From an uncultured Microbulbifer sp. (GTDB lineage: Bacteria > Pseudomonadota > Gammaproteobacteria > Pseudomonadales > Cellvibrionaceae), in contig NZ_CANNGQ010000001.1 of NCBI RefSeq assembly GCF_947504145.1, positions 806,001-870,000 of the forward strand: a stretch of DNA of 64,000 bases, given 5' to 3'. The notes under the pieces were generated by a model. The model did not search any database. It worked only from the letters and a program-made list of their open reading frames with translations, and was not told where the DNA came from. Numbering within the stretch: position 1 is the stretch's first letter; each line of letters starts with the position of its first letter. Both the position numbers and the translations under genes were made by a program. This document shows, piece after piece, positions 14,039-29,938 of this stretch.

Positions 14039-14452
14039 ATGGCCGTAGGACAGCTGGAAATTGTAGTGCGTGGGCAAGGGTTGCACGAGTTTACCGACGA
14101 GGTGGCGCACTGGCTGGCCGGTCAGAGTTACGGCGGGGACGGGCTTTGCACGCTGTTTATCCAGCACACCTCCGCGAGCCTGCTGATTCAGGAGAATGCG
14201 GATCCCTCTGCGCGGGTGGATCTGGAAAACTGGTTGAACCGGCTGGTGCCGGAAAACGACCCGCTTTATACACATACGCTGGAAGGGCCAGATGATATGC
14301 CCGCACATATCAAGGCTGCGTTGACCGCAAGCAGCCTGAGTATTCCGGTGATCGGGGGGCGGTTGGCGCTCGGGACCTGGCAGGGCGTGTACCTGTGGGA
14401 GCACCGGTATCACGCGGGCAAGCGCCGGGTGATTGCGCATTTGGGGAATTAG
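14039..14452 (+). CDS. yjbQ: YjbQ family protein (UPF0047, secondary thiamine-phosphate synthase-like)
   Basis: 137 residues, full length for the family. The conserved core is present: GLCTLFIQHTSASLLIQENADP, then the C-terminal LALGTWQGVYLWEHR. Some members show weak thiamine-phosphate synthase activity and can suppress thiE mutants; the physiological role is unsettled. The protein is a small soluble trimeric metal-binding type with the His of QHTSAS and the DDMPAHIKA segment as likely ligands. It is divergent from trmA and convergent with tusE, so it is probably transcribed alone. Confidence 0.88.
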   Translation: MAVGQLEIVVRGQGLHEFTDEVAHWLAGQSYGGDGLCTLFIQHTSASLLIQENADPSARVDLENWLNRLVPENDPLYTHTLEGPDDMPAHIKAALTASSLSIPVIGGRLALGTWQGVYLWEHRYHAGKRRVIAHLGN

Positions 14453-16765: not shown

Positions 16766-17296
16766 ATGAAATTGCCGAAAACCCTGCTCGCACTGTATCT
16801 ATTGGCCTTTGCCACAGCCGTTCCGCTTGTCCACGCGGAAACGCCGGCACAGGTGCCCTTTGGAGACAAGATGGGGGCAGAAGTGGTGAATTACAATCGC
16901 TTGCGCCCGAATCTTGCCACTGGAGGCAGTATAGATCTTGGTGCGGTGGACTCCCTCAAGCAGAAGGGGTTTAGAACCATTATTGACCTGCGCACGCCAG
17001 CCGAGGGTACGGCTGAGGAGCGCGCGGCGGTAGAGGCGGCGGGGATGGCTTATGTGAACCTGCCGATCGCCAAGGGGGCGCCGACTGAGGCGCAGATTAC
17101 CCGCCTGGCGGAACTGCTTGAGGACGATAGTGCGGCCCCGGTACTGCTGCATTGTGCCAGTGGCAACCGAGTAGGCGCTGGCTGGGCCATATACCGGGTA
17201 CGCAACGGCATCCCGCTGGAGATTGCCATTGAGGAAGGGCGTACCGCGGGTATGCGCCCGTCCCGGGAAGAGCAGGTGCGCGCGCTCTTTCAATGA
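16766..17296 (+). CDS. Exported PTP-like phosphatase, DUF442-type
   Basis: 176 residues. A signal peptide is visible (MKLPKTLLALYLLAFATAVP...VHA, cleavage near residue 24), so it acts in the periplasm. The mature part has YNRLRPNLATGGSIDLGAV, FRTIIDLRTPAEG and the phosphatase loop LLHCASGNRVG. Spacing between Cys and Arg is four residues, as in DUF442/Blh proteins, not the five of classical CX5R tyrosine phosphatases. The ATG at 16766 is preceded by GGGAG; the longer track start is not supported. Convergent with the AP-EEP gene, 32 bp apart. Substrate unknown. Confidence 0.78.
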   Translation: MKLPKTLLALYLLAFATAVPLVHAETPAQVPFGDKMGAEVVNYNRLRPNLATGGSIDLGAVDSLKQKGFRTIIDLRTPAEGTAEERAAVEAAGMAYVNLPIAKGAPTEAQITRLAELLEDDSAAPVLLHCASGNRVGAGWAIYRVRNGIPLEIAIEEGRTAGMRPSREEQVRALFQ

Positions 17297-17328
17297 CTGC
17301 ATGGTGTTGAGTGCTCAGGCGTGACCAC

Positions 17329-19908
17329 TCAGTGTTTGTCCGCCAGCGGAATCTCGATGTCAACGATCAACGGCAGATGATCCGATGCCAGGCGCGTCAG
17401 TTCGCTACGGGGCACATGGACATCATTCACTGCGAGTTCCCGGTCGACAAACACGTAGTCGATCCGCGCCTTGGGCAGTCGGCTGAAAAAAGTCCCCTTG
17501 GGTTTGCGTCCAGGTAGCTTCAGCTGGGTGTCGTCCAGTACCGTCGTCAGGCGTTTGATTTCCGTGGAGCCGGGCAGGGCGTTGAAGTCCCCTACCAGAA
17601 TGCGCGGCCGCGGGCAGTCCGCATTGCCCATCCATCCATCTCCCATCAGCGCATCCACCTGCCTCTGGCGCTCTCCTTTGGTGAGCCCCAGATGGGTATT
17701 GAATATCTGTACTCGCGTACCGTGAAAGTCCACCTCCATCCACAGGGCGCCACGCGGCTCTGCGCGACCGTGGTGAAATGAACGTTCTGATGGGCCGGGC
17801 AAAATATCTTTGCGAATTAGCCGTAGCGGATGGGGCGACATAATGGCATCTCCATAACGCTCGTCTTCCAGGTGCATGGCGGGTTGGAAATGGCAGTCCA
17901 TGGACAGCAATCGCGAAATTTCGTGTGCCTGGTCAATTCCGCCGGTACGTTTGCGCCGTACATCCACTTCTTGTAGTGCCACCACATCGGGCGAATAGCG
18001 CGCGATGACGCGGGCAATCCGCTCCGGTGAAATCTTTCCATCCATGCCTTTACAGATATGCACGTTGTAGGTCATCACCCGCAGGTTTCTGGCGCCGTGA
18101 TGTTTGCCGTTCGATCGGCCGTTAAATTGTGGGGCTTGCTTTGGCTCGGCAGGTACGGTTGTGCTGGCGGTTCCACTGGTCTGGGCCTTCTGGGAGGGAG
18201 CTTGGCGCTCAGGCGCAACCGTCACCGCCGGTGGGGACTTCAATTGTTGTGCCGGTTGCGCTTTGAGGAAGGCCAGGGCCGCATTGCGAATATCCCGTGG
18301 CCGCCAGTGCTTTCTGCCATTCTCTGGAAAATGGATATCCCCTGGCATGAGTGCGAAGGCGTGAGTCTCGTTTGGACCTGCACCGCCATGGCTGCCGCAT
18401 TCAATGGCGAAAGTAATACTTTCGTGCCCTGCGCACCAACCGCTTACCACAAAATCCCCCGCATCCGGGTGCCGGCACAGGTTAGCCAGGTCTTCGACCG
18501 CTTCATCCACGAAGGGGTGATCATCCCCCATGATTTTATGGCCGTCCTCCGGCAGAGAGAACGAGCCGTGACACCACCAGCCACGGACTTTTGTGAGCGG
18601 CTCGCCATCGGGCCCAGGCTCGGTCACGCTGTTATCTTCATAGAGCACCATGGGTGCCTGGGTTTTTTCGACGATCAGGCGGGCGATTTCTTCCGGGGGA
18701 GAGTTCTTGCAATGAATGTTGTAGAGCAGTGCAAGGGGTCCCATGGCAGACAGCGCCATGGGCGCCTCGCCTTCCAGCCGATCTTCCGGGTCTTTGATGG
18801 GGAAGAGTTTTTGCACCCACTGGCCACCGAACAATCGTATCCGCTGTAATTGCACCCCGTGATCGCCACTGGAGCGGTAGCCCTGTGGATTTTGTGGCAG
18901 CTCGGAGAGGGCGCTACTGACAGCGGCGGCGAAGCTGCGCCCGTGTAGAGTTTCGTAGGGTGTGCTGTCTTCCTGACCGTGGTCTGAGTAGATCCACACA
19001 TCGTAATGCCGTCGGGATGAACGGTGCGCGGCGCGCCAAATTCTCGCAACGGCGTCGTCGATTCCCTTGAGTGTCCAGTGGGCGAATTTGGAGCTGGGCC
19101 CCCGCCGGTGAGATTGTTCGTCATAACCCAGCAGGTTGATGTAGATAACCGGGAGGCCGCGGGCAATATCGATTTTCACCCCGACGGTGGAGAGTTCACG
19201 CATCAAAATGGTGATGGCGATGCGGGTTGGAATGAACATCAATTCGCGAACGAAATCCTGGCCGCTGATCAGTCCGCGAAAGAAGTCCGCCACAGACAGG
19301 ATCAATTCCAATAGCAATAGGCCCAAGGTGCGAATCAGGCTCCACAGGTTGGCCAGCAGCATCAAAAGCAGTGCTAGCGGTCCCGCTTCCTTGAGAGACG
19401 GACCCCACCCCTGAGATGCGGGGCAGAAGTGCGCTTCGTCATTTTCCGCACCGGCGCGGAATACGCTGACGTAGCAGCTACCCTGTTTCAGTAGCGGCTC
19501 GTGTCCAGCATCGGTCAGCCTTTTCTCGACTTTATTCGCCGCATTGGATTCATACATCCGCAGCATTTCCTGGGAGTCCGTCGACATAAATCCGAACGCG
19601 GGAACCGCGGCTTTTACCCCGTAAAAAATTTCTGCCTGCACCGCTGGCGTGGTTGCAGGGACGCCGGAATACATATGGTCGAGGTGGTAGTGTTCGCGTT
19701 CGATCAGTTTTTTCAGGAAGGGCATCTTGCCTTCCGCCAGGGCTTTGTCGAGCTGCGGGCGGGCGAGGCCATCGATCTGGATCAGCACCAGCGCCGGTGC
19801 ATCCGGTTCCCGCTCGTTGATCTGTAACTTGAGCATCCGCGCCAGCCATTCACTGCGGCTGATGCGGCGGCGCCAGCGGCGCAGCGTGCTCTCGATACGG
19901 GTCATCAT
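17329..19908 (-). CDS. Membrane-inserted alkaline-phosphatase-superfamily domain fused to an endonuclease/exonuclease/phosphatase domain
   Basis: 859 residues in two enzymes. Residues about 38-545 form an alkaline-phosphatase-superfamily domain: D46 (IQIDGL), nucleophile-type Thr86/87 (PATTPAVQ), YDEQSHR (D263, H267), YSDHGQE (D309, H310) and H508 (CGSHGG). A hydrophobic stretch at 176-212, long enough for two helices, interrupts it. After a Pro/Gln-rich linker (550-605) comes a complete EEP domain: MTYNVH (612-617), LQEVD (646-650), FNTHLG (736-741), GDFNALPG (773-780), IDYVFV, SDHLPL (842-847). Both domain families cleave phosphoesters, including phospholipids. It follows the GT4 gene by 38 bp. 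The exact substrate is unknown; a lipid phosphodiesterase is inferred from the operon. Confidence 0.82.
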   Translation of the reverse strand: MMTRIESTLRRWRRRISRSEWLARMLKLQINEREPDAPALVLIQIDGLARPQLDKALAEGKMPFLKKLIEREHYHLDHMYSGVPATTPAVQAEIFYGVKAAVPAFGFMSTDSQEMLRMYESNAANKVEKRLTDAGHEPLLKQGSCYVSVFRAGAENDEAHFCPASQGWGPSLKEAGPLALLLMLLANLWSLIRTLGLLLLELILSVADFFRGLISGQDFVRELMFIPTRIAITILMRELSTVGVKIDIARGLPVIYINLLGYDEQSHRRGPSSKFAHWTLKGIDDAVARIWRAAHRSSRRHYDVWIYSDHGQEDSTPYETLHGRSFAAAVSSALSELPQNPQGYRSSGDHGVQLQRIRLFGGQWVQKLFPIKDPEDRLEGEAPMALSAMGPLALLYNIHCKNSPPEEIARLIVEKTQAPMVLYEDNSVTEPGPDGEPLTKVRGWWCHGSFSLPEDGHKIMGDDHPFVDEAVEDLANLCRHPDAGDFVVSGWCAGHESITFAIECGSHGGAGPNETHAFALMPGDIHFPENGRKHWRPRDIRNAALAFLKAQPAQQLKSPPAVTVAPERQAPSQKAQTSGTASTTVPAEPKQAPQFNGRSNGKHHGARNLRVMTYNVHICKGMDGKISPERIARVIARYSPDVVALQEVDVRRKRTGGIDQAHEISRLLSMDCHFQPAMHLEDERYGDAIMSPHPLRLIRKDILPGPSERSFHHGRAEPRGALWMEVDFHGTRVQIFNTHLGLTKGERQRQVDALMGDGWMGNADCPRPRILVGDFNALPGSTEIKRLTTVLDDTQLKLPGRKPKGTFFSRLPKARIDYVFVDRELAVNDVHVPRSELTRLASDHLPLIVDIEIPLADKH

Positions 19909-19946
19909 GAGGCAGAATCCATTTCTGTTTCAGTGCTAGATCGTGT

Positions 19947-21233
19947 TCAGGTGTCGCTTTTACCGGAGTGGTCCGGGTCCAGAGCGGCGGTGGCGGCACC
20001 GGTGACTCCTTCGAGGATTTCCCACTGGGCACCGATCATATTGCGCAGGCGCATCCATTGGGCGTAAAGGGAGTCATCTAGGGGCCAGTGCTGGTGTACC
20101 AGGGATTCGTAGTGGCGGATTGCGACTGAGGCGCAGTTCTCCATGGAAAATCTCTCGGCCGTGGACAGGGCTGCGTCGGAGAGTTTTACGTACTCGGTCT
20201 CGGGGAGGTCGTACACCCATTGCAAGGCCGCGACCAGCTCCCGTGGGCAATGTTTCAGGAGCAGACGGCCATTGATCCGGTCATCTACTACTTCCCTGCA
20301 GCCGCTTGCATCCAATGCGACTACAGGAACACCGGCGGCCATGGCTTCCGTGAGCACCATGCCCTGGGTTTCGCTGGTAGAGGAGAAGCCGAATACATTC
20401 ATGGCGGTGTACGCATCACGCTGCGCTTCTCCCTGCAGGGTGCCGGTCAAGTGGAGGCGATCGCTCATGCCATGTGTGCTGAAAAGGTTCTGGATCTCAC
20501 TTTGCATGGGGCCGGCGCCTACGACCATGAAGTGCACATCGCTGTTGCGTTTCATCAGTTCGAGTACGGCCTCAGACAGGAAGCCGAGGTTTTTTTCTTC
20601 GGCCAGTCGCCCGAGATGGCCGACGACAAAGGCCTTTTCCGGAATGCCGAACTGTGCCCGTGCGGCGTGCCCATTACCGTTTTGATAGTCCTCGAGTTTT
20701 ACACCGGTGGGTACTGCCTCAATGGGGGATTTCACTCCGCGCTCGCGCAGCAGGTCGGCGACGCTTTCGCTGGGGGCAAATACCATGCTTGCCAGGTTGC
20801 TGTAGCGCGTGGCGAGCTCAATCACGAACCGTTTTAGTGCTTCCGAGTCGGCCGGAACGTAATGGGTGTAGCGCTCATACAGGGTGTGGTGGGTAAACAC
20901 CAGCGGCAGTTCGCGGCTGCGCGCAATTCGCAGGGCTGTCATACCCAGCAAAAATGGGTGGTGTGAGTGCACCAGGTCAGGCTCGAAAAAATCCAGCTGC
21001 TCGGTGAGTTCGCCAGACAGAGGCAGGGCTACGGAAAAGTCGCTGCCGTTAAAATTCTGTATTGCGTGAATACGCACCACATCTTTTTCATTTTCGATTT
21101 TTTCTGAGAATTCCGGCGCGACCACAAGCACCTGGTGTCCGCGCTTGCGGTACTCCCGACAGAATGCATCTACCGAGCGCGCTACACCGCCCACATGGGG
21201 CAGGTAGGTGTTGGTCAGCATGACGATATTCAC
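19947..21233 (-). CDS. GT4-family glycosyltransferase, diacylglycerol glucosyltransferase-like
   Basis: 428 residues, GT-B fold. N-terminal acceptor domain: MLTNTYLPHVGGVARSVD, then DLVHSHHPFLLG and FTHHTLYERYTHYVP (113-127). The C-terminal nucleotide-sugar domain has VGHLGRLAEEKN and the retaining E(x7)E pair E288/E296 (SETQGMVLTEAMAAGVPVV). The THHTLYExYTHY segment resembles 1,2-diacylglycerol 3-glucosyltransferases of the alMGS type, so a lipid acceptor is plausible but unproven. No membrane span, so probably peripheral. The start is GTG overlapping the upstream gene's stop by four bases. Second-last gene of a four-gene operon. Confidence 0.85.
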   Translation of the reverse strand: MNIVMLTNTYLPHVGGVARSVDAFCREYRKRGHQVLVVAPEFSEKIENEKDVVRIHAIQNFNGSDFSVALPLSGELTEQLDFFEPDLVHSHHPFLLGMTALRIARSRELPLVFTHHTLYERYTHYVPADSEALKRFVIELATRYSNLASMVFAPSESVADLLRERGVKSPIEAVPTGVKLEDYQNGNGHAARAQFGIPEKAFVVGHLGRLAEEKNLGFLSEAVLELMKRNSDVHFMVVGAGPMQSEIQNLFSTHGMSDRLHLTGTLQGEAQRDAYTAMNVFGFSSTSETQGMVLTEAMAAGVPVVALDASGCREVVDDRINGRLLLKHCPRELVAALQWVYDLPETEYVKLSDAALSTAERFSMENCASVAIRHYESLVHQHWPLDDSLYAQWMRLRNMIGAQWEILEGVTGAATAALDPDHSGKSDT

Positions 21234-23479
21234 TTACGCTGTAACTCCAACGTTTTAACCCAGCGGTCTGGGACGGCGGGCTGATAGCCAAACGCCCGAA
21301 CCTCGATGTGCGGCGCCTTATCGTGCCACTTCCCTGACCAGGAAACACGTGGCTTGTCTCCAGGGGTGATTTCCAGAGAAATAGTTCCAAAATGCGTGGG
21401 GGCCGGGCCAAAGCGAATTGGCTCTTGAGCCGTGCTGTCGCTCAACCACTCCGGTGGCAACCCCGAGGCAAGGATCAGGGTGTCGTCCTCTTCCCTCACA
21501 AAGCAATTGCGCTGCATGGTGACCCACTCTGCCGCTGCCCACGCGTGCTGGCCATCGCCCATGCAGCCGCCGAAGGAGTGCGGGTGAATGGCTTCCGGCC
21601 ACTGACCGGTGGGGGAGGCGAGTTTGGCGACATTGCGCATCAGGTCGATGCAGCGGGGATCGCCCGCACGCAGTAACACCTGAGCGACATGAATGGTGAG
21701 ATAGGCGTTGATACCCGAGTGGATCATGTCCTGGAAAAAGCCACCGGAAACGAAGCAGTTCTCCATCAGAAATTCCACCAGATCGAGCAGTCGCGGATCA
21801 TCTTCTGGGTATAGCTTCAGCGGGTAGCCCGCGGCTATCGAGCCGATGGCACCGGCATCCAGCCTGCGTTTGGGGGAGGCCGGCATGGCCGGACGCTTGA
21901 GGCGTTCGGCGCACTTTTCCAGCGCCTGATCCACCGTGAGCATGAAATCATCCGCCTGTCGCTGAAAGGTATCCGCATCCTGGGTTTGCCCCTCACGACG
22001 ACAGATGGCAACGGACGATAGCTGCCCGGAAATACCCCAGAAATCATCCCAGAAGTAACAATCGTTTGGTCCCAGGTGTTCTGCACTGAATCCCGCGGGC
22101 AACAGTCCGCCTGTGAGGCTGCCGTCTTTCGGTTGGCGCTTGTTGTGTATCCACTGGGCGCCGCGCAATACGGGGTCCAGCCATTCGGGTTTGAGTTTGT
22201 TGCCGGTGATCCGGCAGTACTGATCAATGATCCACAGTGCTTCACCATTGGAGTCCCACTCGCCGTCCTGGGAGTGGAAATAACCGTTGCGTTTCTGGCG
22301 TGACGGGAAGCGCTCGAGGGCGCGTTCTGCACGGTCCAGTAACCCGGCGTGCAATAGCGACTGGATCATAAAGGCGGCGTCGCGGAACCAGAATCGTTTG
22401 TAGGTATAGGGGCCCGGGTAGACGTCGTGGGGGGAATGCAGTATCAGCGAGCGCACAGCGGCATCGTAAAGGAACTGCATTTCCGTGTCGGGTACGCTCA
22501 TGGCGCAGTGTTGCTGCAGATTTTCTTTCCAGCTGGTGCGCGCATTTCGTGTGTTGAGTTTACAGTGCTGAGGGATTGTGATCTGTGTATCGAGGGTTTC
22601 ACCAGGTTCGATGCGGAACAGCGCGGCGGCCGTGGCCATGCCCACCTCGCACTCGGAATGGACCTCGTTTGATTCATCGCGCAGGTACAGGGAAATATCG
22701 CCGCGCTTGTAATCGGAGGCGTGGTGACGATCGACGGGGCGATCAAACAATACCTTGTCGCGCCCATCGACCAGCCACTGGTTGCGATCCTCACCGAGAA
22801 CTACCTTGTGGACAAAGGCAACGCCTTCCGGATTGTAAGGGCGCAGGGAAACCACGAGCCAGCCGCCACTGTGATGTTGTGCGCGCACCCGCATATGGCA
22901 ATTATTGTTGCGCTCACTTAACTCCGCCCAGACCCGGCAATTCAGTTGCATGGATTCCGTGGAGGACGTGGTGTCGATGGCGACACCGGTGGTGTTGTCC
23001 ATTGCGAGCTGCTGGTCGACATCGTCCCGCTGGGATGGGTAGAGTGCGCTGCCGTCGTCTCCGATGATCCAGCTGTCGATGGACCAGCCATCGTAGTGTG
23101 GGATCAACAGGCCGCGGGGGTCGACAATCGGCATCTCTTCGCTATCCGGGACACCGACTGCGGTCCAGTTGCGATGGCTCAGGTTACAGTGGGTGATGGA
23201 AAATGCCCGCGGAATGAAAGAGACATCTGCCGGGTCGAATTGTCGTTCAATCCAATAGGGCCACACCCAGTCCAGGTTGTGCTGGATCACCTTGCTGTTG
23301 ATCAGTGCCCGTGCGTGAAAAATTGCGCCTGCACGTAACAATTCGATGGGCTCACTGACTTCGGAAGGTTCCGCAAAACGCTGCATTCGCGCCATCAACG
23401 TGAGCGGATCGAGAAATCCGTGGGAGGTGGCGAACTTGCGTACGAAGAACCGCCAGGGAAGCCATTTCATCCAGGGCAT
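21230..23479 (-). CDS. Six-hairpin glycosidase-like protein (amylo-alpha-1,6-glucosidase/GDE type)
   Basis: 749 residues, no signal peptide, so cytoplasmic. The N-terminal 320 residues are beta-rich. Residues about 335-660 form an (alpha/alpha)6 barrel: TYKRFWFRDAAFMIQSLLHA (D367), EWDSNGEALWIIDQY (E413), DCYFWDDFWG, GQWPEAIHPHSFGG (E629) and GDGQHAWAAAEW. These recall glycogen-debranching C-terminal domains and GH15/GH63 glucosidases, with acidic candidates for catalysis at 367, 413 and 629. The track ORF extends to 23800, but MPWMKWLPWRFF at 23479 is the true start: it overlaps the VTT stop as ATGA. Likely trims or assembles a glucoside made by the neighbouring GT4. Function inferred only from context. 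Confidence 0.75.
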   Translation of the reverse strand: MPWMKWLPWRFFVRKFATSHGFLDPLTLMARMQRFAEPSEVSEPIELLRAGAIFHARALINSKVIQHNLDWVWPYWIERQFDPADVSFIPRAFSITHCNLSHRNWTAVGVPDSEEMPIVDPRGLLIPHYDGWSIDSWIIGDDGSALYPSQRDDVDQQLAMDNTTGVAIDTTSSTESMQLNCRVWAELSERNNNCHMRVRAQHHSGGWLVVSLRPYNPEGVAFVHKVVLGEDRNQWLVDGRDKVLFDRPVDRHHASDYKRGDISLYLRDESNEVHSECEVGMATAAALFRIEPGETLDTQITIPQHCKLNTRNARTSWKENLQQHCAMSVPDTEMQFLYDAAVRSLILHSPHDVYPGPYTYKRFWFRDAAFMIQSLLHAGLLDRAERALERFPSRQKRNGYFHSQDGEWDSNGEALWIIDQYCRITGNKLKPEWLDPVLRGAQWIHNKRQPKDGSLTGGLLPAGFSAEHLGPNDCYFWDDFWGISGQLSSVAICRREGQTQDADTFQRQADDFMLTVDQALEKCAERLKRPAMPASPKRRLDAGAIGSIAAGYPLKLYPEDDPRLLDLVEFLMENCFVSGGFFQDMIHSGINAYLTIHVAQVLLRAGDPRCIDLMRNVAKLASPTGQWPEAIHPHSFGGCMGDGQHAWAAAEWVTMQRNCFVREEDDTLILASGLPPEWLSDSTAQEPIRFGPAPTHFGTISLEITPGDKPRVSWSGKWHDKAPHIEVRAFGYQPAVPDRWVKTLELQRK

Positions 23480-24183
23480 CAGCGCTCTCCTTGGTCGATT
23501 TTCTGATTGAGTGCACGGCGCGCCATACGGGTCAGGCAGACGATCGCGATGATCGCGAGACAAAAGCCCAGACCGTACAGGGTCCACTCCGTGGGTGTGC
23601 GGGCACTGCGTTCGGTACCGATACTGGCCAGATCCGCTGCAATGGAGCCCACATACACGTTGTTGACTGTGATGGGGATGACGCCCAAGAAGTTCCCGAT
23701 ACAGAAGTCCCGGAAGCGCAGCGGCGTCAGCCCGAAGAAATAATTCGAAAGTTTGAATGGGAACAGCGGGACCATGCGCGTCAGCATCACCATGCGCCAA
23801 CCCTCATCGCGCAAAATCTCCCCTAGGTTCGCCGGTTTGATTTTTGACAGCAGCCAGTCAGAAGCGCGCTTGCCGAGCAGGTAGCGTGAAATCAGGAAGG
23901 CAACTGCTGCCCCGAGCACGGTACCCAGTACCACATACACCGTGCCTTTTACTACACCGAATACGAACCCCGCGCCCATGGTGAATACCACACCGGGAAA
24001 CAGGAAAATGATCGCCAGAGCGATGACCAGGGCAAACCATACGCCCGCCTGCCAACCCAGTGTGTCCATCCACTGCATGAGCTCGATGAGCCGATCATCC
24101 AGATCAAAGTAATGCAGGATTGCCAGCACGATGCCCACGGTGGCCGTACTGATGACAATCAACCAGATAGGTGAAAACTTCAC
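23479..24183 (-). CDS. TVP38/TMEM64 (VTT/DedA superfamily) membrane protein
   Basis: 234 residues, about five to six membrane segments. The VTT core is clear: re-entrant loop FLFPGVVFTMGAGFVFG, then GAAVAFLISRYLLGKRASDWL, RMVPLFPFKLSNYFFGLTPLRF and FLGVIPITVNNVYVGSIA. VTT/DedA proteins are linked to lipid scrambling and carrier-lipid flipping. First gene of the operon with the glycosidase-like, GT4 and AP-EEP genes, overlapping the second by ATGA. The 173-bp gap to DUF4010 upstream presumably carries the operon promoter, though I found no clean -35/-10 pair. Confidence 0.88.
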   Translation of the reverse strand: MKFSPIWLIVISTATVGIVLAILHYFDLDDRLIELMQWMDTLGWQAGVWFALVIALAIIFLFPGVVFTMGAGFVFGVVKGTVYVVLGTVLGAAVAFLISRYLLGKRASDWLLSKIKPANLGEILRDEGWRMVMLTRMVPLFPFKLSNYFFGLTPLRFRDFCIGNFLGVIPITVNNVYVGSIAADLASIGTERSARTPTEWTLYGLGFCLAIIAIVCLTRMARRALNQKIDQGER

Positions 24184-24356
24184 GCCATATTATTCCGCTG
24201 GGCCCGAGCTCTTGGTGGCCGGATTACACAATGCCGACTGGAGTCGATAAATTTGTACTCTTTATAGACTAGCCAACCCGGTGACGGGCGTGTCTACATC
24301 ATTTGTGGATTATTTCCTGCCGAAATAGGGAGGATCCGCACATATTGAAAAAATTC

Positions 24357-26027: not shown

Positions 26028-29000
26028 TCAGCCTGCTTCGGCGGAGCCGGAGCTGTTTTCCGTGCTGGCACTGCGTTTTGTGCGCGGGTCGTTGGCCGGG
26101 CGCTGGAGTGCGCGCGGGCTGTGCTCAATGTTGGCCGGTTGGGCGGTGTCGAGCGGTCGCAGTTCGCCAACTTCCGGGCGGGCAGTGACGACCTGGAAAT
26201 CAACCAGAGGTTTCGGGTTGATACGTGGGTCGTTGCTGGCGCGGCCGGGGGAGCCGGTTTTAGCTGCCTGCTCTGGCGCTGCCGATACAGGTTGGCTGGT
26301 CTCGGCTTGTGCTTCAGACGCTTGTTCGCTTGCGGCTTGCTGGGGGACTGCAGTGCTGGTGCTTGTTTCGGCTGCGGCATCAGTTGATGGCTCAGCGTCA
26401 GCGGCCAGATTGGCTGCGGCTTCTTCCTGATTCTCCGCGAGGAAGTCACCTTCCGCGTGGGTCTTCTGGGTTTCTGCCGATTCCTCAGTTTTCACGTCCG
26501 CTGTAGGTGCTTCAACCACATTGGCAGCGGCCTCGGGCTTGGGCTCTTCCCGCGGTGCGTCTTTTGCGGCTTGCTCTGCAGTCTGCTCAGCGGCTTTGGG
26601 CTTGCTGGCTTTCGCAGGCTCGACGCTGGGTTCGGCTTTCTGTTCCGCCTTGGCAGGAGCATCTTCCGTCTGCGTTTCTGGGCGTACCTGTGCGTCCGCC
26701 CAGGGCTGTTTTGCTTGGGGCTCGCTTTCCGGCTTGTCAGTCTGCTTTACCGCTGCTTGCTCTTGGGTTTGAGCTTCGGGCTTGCCAGCCGGCTTGTCGT
26801 CGCGCTCGCGCTTCGCCCGCGGCTTGCGCTGCTGGGGCTCGGAGGATTGCTCAGACTTGGCGGTAACGTCGCTGTCACTGCTAGCGGGAGATTGAGTGGA
26901 CTCCTGCTGCGCATTTTCTGCCGCATTTTCGTCCCGTCTGTCTCCACCACGGCGACCGCGGCGACGGGGCTGTGGGCGACCGCGCACGTTACTTGGGCGG
27001 CGCGCCGGACGTTGCTGGTCATCGCTGGAGCCGCTCGCTTCCGCTGCACTCTCCACGTTGGTGTTTTCGACCTCGGCGTTGGTGGTTTGCGGCTCGTTAC
27101 GACGGTCGTTGCGATCTCCGCCACGGCGTCTGCGGCTGCGGCGTTGGCCTTCGCGCTGTCCGTCGCGACTGTTGTCACGATTGCTGTCACGCGCGCTCTC
27201 ACGATTGGAGTCGCGATTGTCGCGGTTGTCACTGCGGCGATCGTTGTTATCGCTGTCGTCACGGCGCTTGTCGCCGCGTTTGGAGCGGGTGTCGTCCCTG
27301 CGGTCATCACTGCGCTGGTCGTCGCGACGTCCGCCGCGATTTCCTCGACCGCGTCCGCGGCCACCGCGCTGATTACGGTTGCGTTGCTGGTAGTTTTTGC
27401 CACGGCCGTCCGACTTTTTGTGTTTCTTATCGGACTTTTCTTCTTCCTCACTGCTGAACAGTGCGGAGATTGCGCCGACAAGGCGGCTGAGCAGCCCAGG
27501 CTTGGACTCCTCTTTTGCCTTGGCTTTGGCTTTGGGCTTGGCGACTGGCGTGGGAGCCGGTGCGGTGTGTGCGATCTGCTGCACCGCAGGCTGGGCCGGC
27601 GCGCGCAGCGGCTCTTCGTCTTTGTCCTTTTCCGCCGCTTCTTCGATAGTGCCGGAAATCTTGTAGGAGGTTTCGACGGTGGTCTCGTCGTCGCGCAGGC
27701 GCAGTACTTCGAAGTGCGGGGTTTCGAGGTCCTCATTCGGCACCACGACAACACGAGTGTTGTTGCGGGATTCGATATTGGAAATGGCTTTGCGCTTTTC
27801 GTTCAGCAGATAAGTTGCCACGTTCACCGGGGTGATCGCGCGGATTTCTGCGCTGCGCTCTTTCTTCGCTTCTTCTTCTACCAGTCGCAGGATGGAGAGG
27901 GCGAGGGACTTGGTACCGCGAATGGTGCCTTGGCCGCTACAGCGGGGGCAGACACGGAAGGTGGTTTCGCCGAGGGACGGACGCAGGCGCTGGCGAGACA
28001 TTTCCAGCAGGCCGAAGCGGGAGATGCGCCCGACCTGTACCCGGGCGCGGTCCATGCCGAGGGCCTTTTCCATACGCTTTTCAACTTCGCGCTGGCTGGA
28101 CTTGCTCTGCATGTCGATGAAGTCGATGACTACCAGTCCACCCATGTCGCGCAGGCGCAGCTGGCGAGCAATTTCGTCGGCGGCTTCCAGGTTGATAGTG
28201 CGGGCGGTTTCCTCGATGTCGCCGCCTTTGGTGGCGCGAGAGGAGTTGATGTCGATGGAGACCAGAGCCTCGGTAACGTCGATTACGATGGAGCCGCCGG
28301 AGGGCAGCTTCACTTCACGCTCGAATGCGGTCTCGATCTGGCTCTCAATCTGGTAGCGATTGAACAGCGGAATATTGTCGTCGTAGAACTTTACTTTGTT
28401 GGCATAGTTCGGCATTACCTGGCGGGCGAACTCGGCGGCCAGCTGGTAGGCACCGTTCTCGTCGACGATGACTTCGCCGATATCGTCGCGCATGTAGTCA
28501 CGAATTGCGCGGATGATGACGTTACTTTCCTGAAACAGGAAGTGAGGTGCTTTGGAGTCGTCGGCTTCCTGCTTGATGGCATCCCACAGTTGCAGCAGAT
28601 AGGTGAGGTCCCATTGCAGCTCTTCGCCGCTGCGGCCCACACCGGCAGTGCGCACAATGATGCCCATACCGGAGGGAACTTCCACGCTGGACAGGGCGTC
28701 GCGCAGGTCGCTGCGCTCGTCGCCCTCAATGCGGCGGGAGATACCGCCGGCACGTGGGTTGTTTGGCATCAGCACCAGGTAGCGGCCAGCGAGGCTGATA
28801 AAGGTGGTGAGTGCAGCGCCCTTGTTGCCGCGCTCTTCTTTATCGACCTGGACGATCACTTCCATGCCTTCTTTAACCACATCCTTGATCTTGATGCGGC
28901 CGTCGATGTCTTTCGGCTGTTTGAGGAAGTATTCTCGGGAGATTTCTTTCAGCGGCAGAAAGCCGTGGCGCTCAGCACCGTAATCGACAAAGGCGGCTTC

Positions 29001-29159
29001 CAGGGAGGGTTCTACGCGGGTGATTTTACCTTTGTAGATATTGGCTTTTTTCTGTTCGCGGGTGCGATTTTCAATATCCAGGTCGTACAGCCATTGGCCG
29101 TCGACCAGTGCAACTCGCAGCTCTTCTGGCTGGGTTGCGTTGATCAGCATTCTCTTCAT
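26028..29159 (-). CDS. rne: Ribonuclease E
   Basis: 1043 residues; essential endoribonuclease for mRNA decay and rRNA/tRNA processing and scaffold of the degradosome at the inner membrane. The start [20 protein letters not shown] is the universal RNase E N-terminus, so the extra 89 residues of the track ORF are leader. S1 domain ([20 protein letters not shown]), 5' sensor and DNase-like domain with both catalytic aspartates ([15 protein letters not shown] and [11 protein letters not shown]), and the zinc link CPRCSGQG are intact. The C-terminal half is disordered: Arg-rich [12 protein letters not shown] repeats, acidic/Ala/Gln stretches and two NDPR short motifs near the end, likely partner-binding sites. 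A long untranslated leader is expected for autoregulation. Confidence 0.97.
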
Positions 29160-29938
29160 GCGTCTATTTTTTCCTTGCGTTGTGCGAAGGTAAAAACACC
29201 GCTGAAGCTCGCAGGCTTTGGTGTGGCCACGGGGTAGAGGAGGGCATGCCCTGGCAACTATCGCCGTGTTGTATGCACTCTCTGCAGGGGCGCTAGTGGA
29301 GCACCTGCGGTATGCATACATTGTTAACTCTGGATACCGGTTCTCAATTGGGTATCCGCTTCCTGTCAGGCCGGCTCCGTATAGATCCCGGGCGGGTCCT
29401 GACTGCTGCCCGGTGTGGGGCGGCATGGGTCACATCTTTTCTAGGCTCCGGGGCCGGCTCGTGGCTGGGCCCTTTGGACTGTCTAGTTGTTGCCGGCGGT
29501 GCGAGCGTGCCATTTTGCATCACTTGCAGGGGCCGGGGGCCAGTTCGGTCGCTGGCGCAAATTCGCGGAGCGAGATGTGACGAATAGAGTCTGTTCCAAG
29601 CGCTGCGGGCGTCAGCCCGTCTTACCTTCGCAAAAATTCCCGCGGTTACGGGGTCGTGTCGGCGAGAGCTTCGGGAGGGGCTTCTAAGGCCAGGATCCCT
29701 GGGCACCATCTTGCGACGCGCTCTTGAAGAGTCTCGCCGACGGAGTTTTGTTGATAACGCGGTTTTCCGCGCACCGGCCCGATTAGCGGTATTTTCTCAA
29801 GAGCGGCACCTGAGTTTTTGTATAGCAGAAAAACCGTGCACCGCCGAAAACCAGCCCCAATTCAGGCCGGCCGAATATACCACGGTGTATCAGGAGCGGC
29901 AATCGCGGTGCTTCAAATGGCGGGAGCTTGGGGCTATC
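29160..29938. other. 779-bp divergent intergenic region between rne and rluC
   Basis: No convincing gene: frames here lack a ribosome site or family similarity. By analogy with E. coli it should hold the rne promoter(s) and a long structured 5' leader. A GC hairpin CGGGC-GTCA-GCCCG sits near 29605. The rluC side has the AT-rich stretch GAGTTTTTGTATAG near 29815. I could not place either promoter with certainty. Confidence 0.5.

Follow-up and report, generated by a model that had tools for sequence, protein, structure and literature searches.

A conserved four-gene module of Microbulbifer that may act in membrane glycolipid turnover

The window analysed here is a 64,000-nucleotide stretch of the genome of an uncultured Microbulbifer sp. 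(contig NZ_CANNGQ010000001.1, positions 806,001 to 870,000). Between positions 24183 and 17329, all on the minus strand, four open reading frames (ORFs) encode a VTT-domain membrane protein, a glycosidase-like protein, a GT4 glycosyltransferase and a protein, AP-EEP, which joins an AP-superfamily phosphodiesterase domain to an EEP domain. These genes form a real, conserved and apparently undescribed module; a literature search for the combination, which covered few subscription papers, found no description of it. Judged from their sequences, the four proteins are linked, co-inherited and have intact active sites. The reading put forward here, that the genes constitute one conserved functional module which makes and turns over a membrane glycolipid, is tentative, its probability lying a little under even.

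Gene order and distribution

The preliminary description of this DNA placed the four genes here on one strand; all of the ORFs were confirmed, with domains recognized by Pfam and the glycosidase label by fold. Its account of the junctions needs one correction. The 4-base overlap GTGA between the glycosidase and GT4 genes and the 38 bp gap between the GT4 and AP-EEP genes are as described, but the VTT/glycosidase junction, given as ATGA, reads TGATG, in which the VTT stop codon TGA and the glycosidase ATG share one base. Translational coupling, which had been extended to the whole operon, is likely at the two overlapping junctions but less clear across the 38 bp gap. In several other genomes the GT4 and AP-EEP genes also overlap by 4 bases.

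The glycosidase-like gene is present in 37 of 37 Microbulbifer genomes and AP-EEP in all 13 Microbulbifer genomes sampled. Eight of the nine named genome matches of the glycosidase-like protein are Microbulbifer (70–92% identity), and the four-gene order is present in the Microbulbifer loci read. Outside the genus, a close glycosidase homologue occurs in 11 of 274 class-sample genomes; further carriers come from the phylum and family samples, plus one Desulfobacteraceae contig. Among the 18 non-Microbulbifer glycosidase loci that were read, GT4 lies directly downstream of the glycosidase gene in 16, mostly with 4-base overlaps, VTT lies directly upstream of it in 12, and AP-EEP directly follows GT4 in nine.

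The complete order VTT-GH-GT4-AP-EEP (GH being the glycosidase-like gene) is found in L061, L062, L064, L067, L069, L107, L121 and L123, and GH-GT4-AP-EEP in L122, where the contig ends upstream. Shorter arrangements are VTT-GH-GT4 (L063, L066), GH-GT4 (L065, L068, L070, L071, L040) and VTT-GH (L105, L106). Two genomes without the glycosidase retain GT4-AP-EEP (L103, and L104, in which GT4 is cut by the contig end), so that AP-EEP follows GT4 in 11 of the 11 distant loci having a full-length AP-EEP. GT4 and AP-EEP are the tightest pair, and the glycosidase and VTT are frequent but dispensable partners. Any subset of neighbouring genes can persist, as predicted for a shared pathway with optional steps.

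Recurrence of the order in distant genera puts the arrangement far outside what chance would give, and the earlier view of a conserved multi-gene unit is borne out; a peculiarity of this strain is ruled out by the 37 Microbulbifer genomes together with the distant-genus loci. Pairwise identities of the module proteins diverge in parallel (r = 0.86–0.96, with no unlinked control). Within the GTDB family, which spans at least 32 genera, AP-EEP is patchy (4 of 32 genera), and this indicates transfer or repeated loss. One genome of the same family, G501, has neither GH nor GT. A link between this genome and Biformimicrobium, reported to lack glycolipids, was dropped, given the breadth of the family and a disagreement on glycolipids between the text and Table 2 of the paper concerned.

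Properties of the four proteins

The GT4 protein (19947..21233, minus; GTG start, 428 aa) matches Pfam PF13439 (1.1e-36) and PF00534. It carries FTHHTLYERYTHYVP, the EX7E motif (E288-x7-E296) and the donor motif G-R-x-x-x-E-K-N (GRLAEEKN), as retaining GT-B enzymes of family GT4 do, and both glutamates are invariant in 16 aligned GT4 proteins. The top NCBIfam model is NF049988, alpha-monoglucosyldiacylglycerol synthase (145 bits, residues 1–381 aligned), followed among curated models by N-acetylglucosaminyl phosphatidylglycerol synthase (115 bits); each matches 16 of 16 members. A profile search against solved structures also finds PimA, a phosphatidylinositol mannosyltransferase. The previously noted resemblance to diacylglycerol glucosyltransferases stands, since the nearest curated models are lipid glycosyltransferases and the motif and glutamates are present. 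In another family (L117 448–2667; L119 364–2709), a related GT4 domain is fused behind a 340-residue N-terminal part that has no Pfam match and looks phosphoesterase-like by eye; this fusion occurs in genomes with or without VTT-GH.

AP-EEP (17329..19908, minus; ATG start, 859 aa) consists of an AP domain (18262..19797, minus; residues ~38–549; Pfam Phosphodiest PF01663, 3.2e-11, over its cut-off) with a hydrophobic insert (19267..19389, minus; residues 174–214), a linker and an EEP domain (17347..18096, minus; residues ~605–854; PF03372, 1.6e-22, 80.8 bits against a cut-off of 24.5). The AP domain has the two-metal site and Thr nucleophile of type I phosphodiesterases (D46, T87, D263, H267, D309, H310 and H507, with roles assigned by analogy with nucleotide pyrophosphatase/phosphodiesterases). 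The EEP catalytic set N / E / N-x-H / D-x-N / D-H is complete (N615, E647, N737, H739, D774, N776, D843 and H844). Neither set varies in the 18 fused proteins or in the one split pair, that of G613, whose AP and EEP ORFs are distinct but adjacent and overlapping. Residues 174–214, delimited by a Kyte–Doolittle scan and forming long helices in the predicted model, are likely to be a membrane anchor or hairpin. Together with a basic N-terminus, this hydrophobic stretch suggests a cytosolic location for the two catalytic domains.

In five other genomes, an EEP homologue that stands alone is encoded next to a PLD-VTT fusion protein (L081, L082, L084, L085, L093). A Rhizobium EEP homologue adjoins a PLD protein, and one in Sinorhizobium has both a PLD protein and an LPG_synthase_TM protein as neighbours. 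These neighbourhoods tie EEP independently to VTT and to phospholipid enzymes; the association of EEP and VTT with enzymes of phospholipid head groups therefore occurs without GT4 or the glycosidase.

The VTT protein (23479..24183, minus; GTG start, 234 aa; Pfam PF09335, 1.2e-24) has hydrophobic segments, found by hydropathy scan. In an alignment read by eye, the first re-entrant tip lacks an acidic residue and the second carries PLFPFKLSNYFFG, an eukaryote-like pattern. By published criteria the predicted protein fits the DedA/VTT subfamily COG0398 (TVP38-like), for whose bacterial members phospholipid scrambling has been proposed only, while COG0586 relatives are undecaprenyl-phosphate flippases (PMC10127716). 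Microbulbifer elongatus has two tandem VTT genes before the glycosidase gene (L039 7489–9004), and in M. agarilyticus the sole VTT is more divergent and lies ~150 bp further upstream (L034 and L037, 8162–8860).

The glycosidase-like protein (21230..23479, minus; ATG start, 749 aa) has no match in Pfam or NCBIfam; the GH15 model PF00723 does not match it and is sub-threshold in two relatives. A sequence search against solved structures gave nothing significant, so a fold search was needed. The AlphaFold model (pLDDT 77.7, pTM 0.82) has an N-terminal beta-sandwich and an (alpha/alpha)6 barrel, and its best Foldseek matches are glucodextranase 1ug9 (3.1e-15), glucoamylase 1lf6 (7.2e-14) and GH94 phosphorylases. 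GH94 is about as close as GH15, and hence the fold class only can be assigned; at that level the model supports the label 'glycosidase-like'. In a forced global profile alignment of low probability, W364-R366-D367 aligns with the GH15 W-x-RD motif and E629 with the GH15 catalytic base (the PEQ glutamate, of which PE is shared); these residues are invariant in 18 of 18 aligned proteins. Three candidates for the catalytic acid (E467, D473 and D478) are likewise invariant among the 18, and their alignment to the GH15 WEE motif is ambiguous. The acidic residue at the base position would point to a hydrolase rather than a phosphorylase. More distant homologues (L052–L060; 23–32% identity, ~750–960 aa) show weak GDE_C and rhamnosidase matches.

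Possible functions of the module

In the proposed mechanism, the GT4 would work on the cytosolic side, using a UDP-sugar to glycosylate a lipid, for which diacylglycerol is the likeliest candidate. AP-EEP, anchored in the membrane, would strip phosphate-containing head groups, the AP domain acting as a phosphodiesterase and the EEP domain as a phosphatase or phosphodiesterase, and so supply or recycle the GT4 acceptor. The COG0398-type VTT protein would equilibrate lipid between leaflets, and the GH15-like protein would hydrolyse or trim the sugar and thereby limit or recycle the glycolipid. The scheme of release, glucosylation, movement and trimming in the preliminary description is plausible. 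Six Microbulbifer strains, studied by one group, all show two glycolipids and phosphoglycolipids in ordinary medium (PMC9637087). Such reports agree with synthesis of a glycolipid by the module and are no proof of it.

Several points weigh against this proposal. No module protein passes the cut-off of a curated lipid-enzyme model; the GT4, at 145 bits, falls far short of the 400 bits set for NF049988, and the soluble-acceptor models MshA and BshA score not far behind the lipid models. The EEP relatives with solved structures comprise nucleases, nocturnin and unknowns, with no lipases among them. Glycolipid reports differ between Microbulbifer species, only some of which are listed with glycolipids as predominant (Table 2, PMC11426391), and other glycosyltransferases could be the makers of these lipids. 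In one relative, G613, genes of a glycogen island surround the module.

A bolder version is rather unlikely, at about one chance in four: AP-EEP would be a new two-domain enzyme that turns phospholipid into a glycolipid acceptor and, with a new GH family and a scramblase, would complete a make-flip-trim cycle that is constitutive or part of the general stress response, not one of phosphate saving. Were the glycolipid proposal true, bacteria would have one more glycolipid route in addition to PlcP-Agt and the glucosyl-diacylglycerol synthases of Gram-positive species. The proposal would also give genetic context and a first testable function to a bacterial COG0398 VTT protein, and likewise to the EEP/PLD/VTT neighbourhoods and the Pfam-less glycosidase-like family, and could account for the unidentified glycolipids and phosphoglycolipids in Microbulbifer species descriptions.

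Phosphate saving, suggested earlier as the purpose of the pathway, is not upheld. The 173 bp before the operon contain no Pho box with up to three mismatches. The genome has 27 sites that match with at most two mismatches, but none is near the operon, so that Pho-box control was rejected; Microbulbifer strains, moreover, show glycolipids in ordinary rich medium. Conserved in most Microbulbifer at 57–108 bp before the start codon is an element, TTG[GA]CTAG[TG]CT, which in the window reads TTGGCTAGTCT (24266..24276, minus; 93 bp before the VTT start), identified from an 11-sequence alignment and an upstream scan. It is a possible promoter -10 region, with a resemblance to that of sigma-S which is a lead only. 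TTGNCTAGNCTWWA occurs once in the genome, extended and relaxed patterns of the element give no second copy, and upstream of the homologues in other genera it is missing save for one weak match in L121. With a single genome copy, no regulon could be read from it.

The genes flanking the operon are an MgtC/DUF4010 gene, which lies 173 bp upstream and has a hairpin resembling a terminator close to its end, and a convergent DSP-type phosphatase gene downstream. A YjbQ-like gene (by eye) lies less than ~3 kb downstream of AP-EEP (14039–14452), as it does in L107, from a different family (17115–17528). A 926-aa ORF opposite the rne gene (26457–29237, plus strand) is probably a composition artefact.

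The best-surviving alternative, though an improbable one at about one in five, is that the GT4 adds sugar to the head group of a phospholipid that is still intact (phosphatidylglycerol, for instance), and that AP-EEP cuts or edits the phosphodiester in the product with no prior supply of diacylglycerol. The rank of the N-acetylglucosaminyl phosphatidylglycerol synthase model, second best for the window GT4 and matching all 16 members, is in keeping with this, as are the unidentified phosphatidyl glycolipids in all six Microbulbifer strains (PMC9637087) and the two phosphoesterase domains, which suit editing of a phosphorylated product. However, the monoglucosyldiacylglycerol synthase model scores higher, and the thin-layer chromatography spots are not tied to module genes.

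Less probable again is an alpha-glucan or carbon-storage module, in which the GT4 and the GH15-like enzyme would make and break down a glucan, or a glucoside, tied to glycogen metabolism, the lipid-like partners serving for export or anchoring. In G613, which belongs to the GTDB family of the window's genome, the module is set among glucokinase, glgA, glgB, GAPDH, glgC, GH57 and malQ genes (L123 4145–10892); a glucokinase gene adjoins it in L064, and transketolase, GAPDH, PGK and aldolase genes (by eye) stand beside VTT-GH in L105 and L106. glgA is found in 10 of the 11 other glycosidase-bearing class-sample genomes against 147 of 274 overall, but this enrichment is modest (P of about 0.03 by a hand binomial calculation which includes the window's own genome and ignores descent). 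The lack of any GlgA match in the genome of the window weakens the alternative and indicates that the module can work without classical glycogen synthesis. In addition, the GT4 is nearer to lipid than to glycogen transferases, and no glucan role is known for VTT or AP-EEP. Shared stress physiology may lie behind the G613 neighbourhood.

A soluble glycoside or polyprenyl-linked sugar pathway is slightly more doubtful still. Here the acceptor of the GT4 would be a small molecule or undecaprenyl phosphate, with the VTT protein moving the carrier and AP-EEP recycling phosphates. MshA and BshA fit the GT4 well, both as models and as structures, and the flippase activity of the COG0586 relatives is in line with movement of such a carrier. 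Against this, the VTT protein lacks the acidic first-tip residue expected of undecaprenyl-phosphate flippases (PMC10127716), and no recurring polymerase, ligase or glycan-assembly gene was recognised in the neighbourhoods read, mostly by eye. Anti-phage defence was rejected: PADLOC matches none of the four proteins, although the GT4 matches the GT4-conflict Pfam model weakly.

Comparison with known systems

Among the closest parallels to the proposed glycolipid module is PlcP-Agt of Phaeobacter, SAR11 and Pseudomonas aeruginosa, in which the GT4 product is glucosyl- or glucuronosyl-diacylglycerol (PMC4796936, PMC8231724, PMC8528852). That the module carries out phosphate-starvation lipid renovation exactly as PlcP-Agt does, under PhoB, is very improbable, the least likely of the readings considered. 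The logic is the same, with a phosphoesterase gene adjoining a GT4 gene that, in the module, has a putative lipid role. However, the PlcP-Agt phosphoesterase is the metallophosphoesterase PlcP, whereas the module has the differently folded AP-EEP (PF01663 + PF03372). The VTT and GH15-like proteins are additional, the Pho box is absent, and the Microbulbifer glycolipids were reported without phosphate limitation (PMC9637087). With two defining features, PlcP and the Pho box, failing, the module would be analogous to PlcP-Agt in its working but is not a member of it.

Mgs (NF049988), the best-scoring curated family, shares the EX7E and UDP-sugar motifs with the window GT4, whose score relative to the Mgs cut-off sets it apart as a separate subfamily. 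The glycosidase-like protein has the beta-sandwich and (alpha/alpha)6 barrel of GH15 glucoamylase and glucodextranase and of GH94 phosphorylases, but at ~10–12% identity and without a Pfam GH15 match, and nothing known corresponds to its highly conserved first 110 residues.

The Rhizobium and Sinorhizobium EEP-PLD neighbourhoods resemble the cardiolipin operon ybhP-clsB-ybhN (PMC9241728). In that operon and in the PLD-VTT/EEP pairs, an EEP protein is encoded with enzymes of phospholipid head groups, and where these are PLD-VTT fusions also with a VTT domain; in the module the EEP domain is fused to AP, and the GT4 and glycosidase take the place of phospholipase D.

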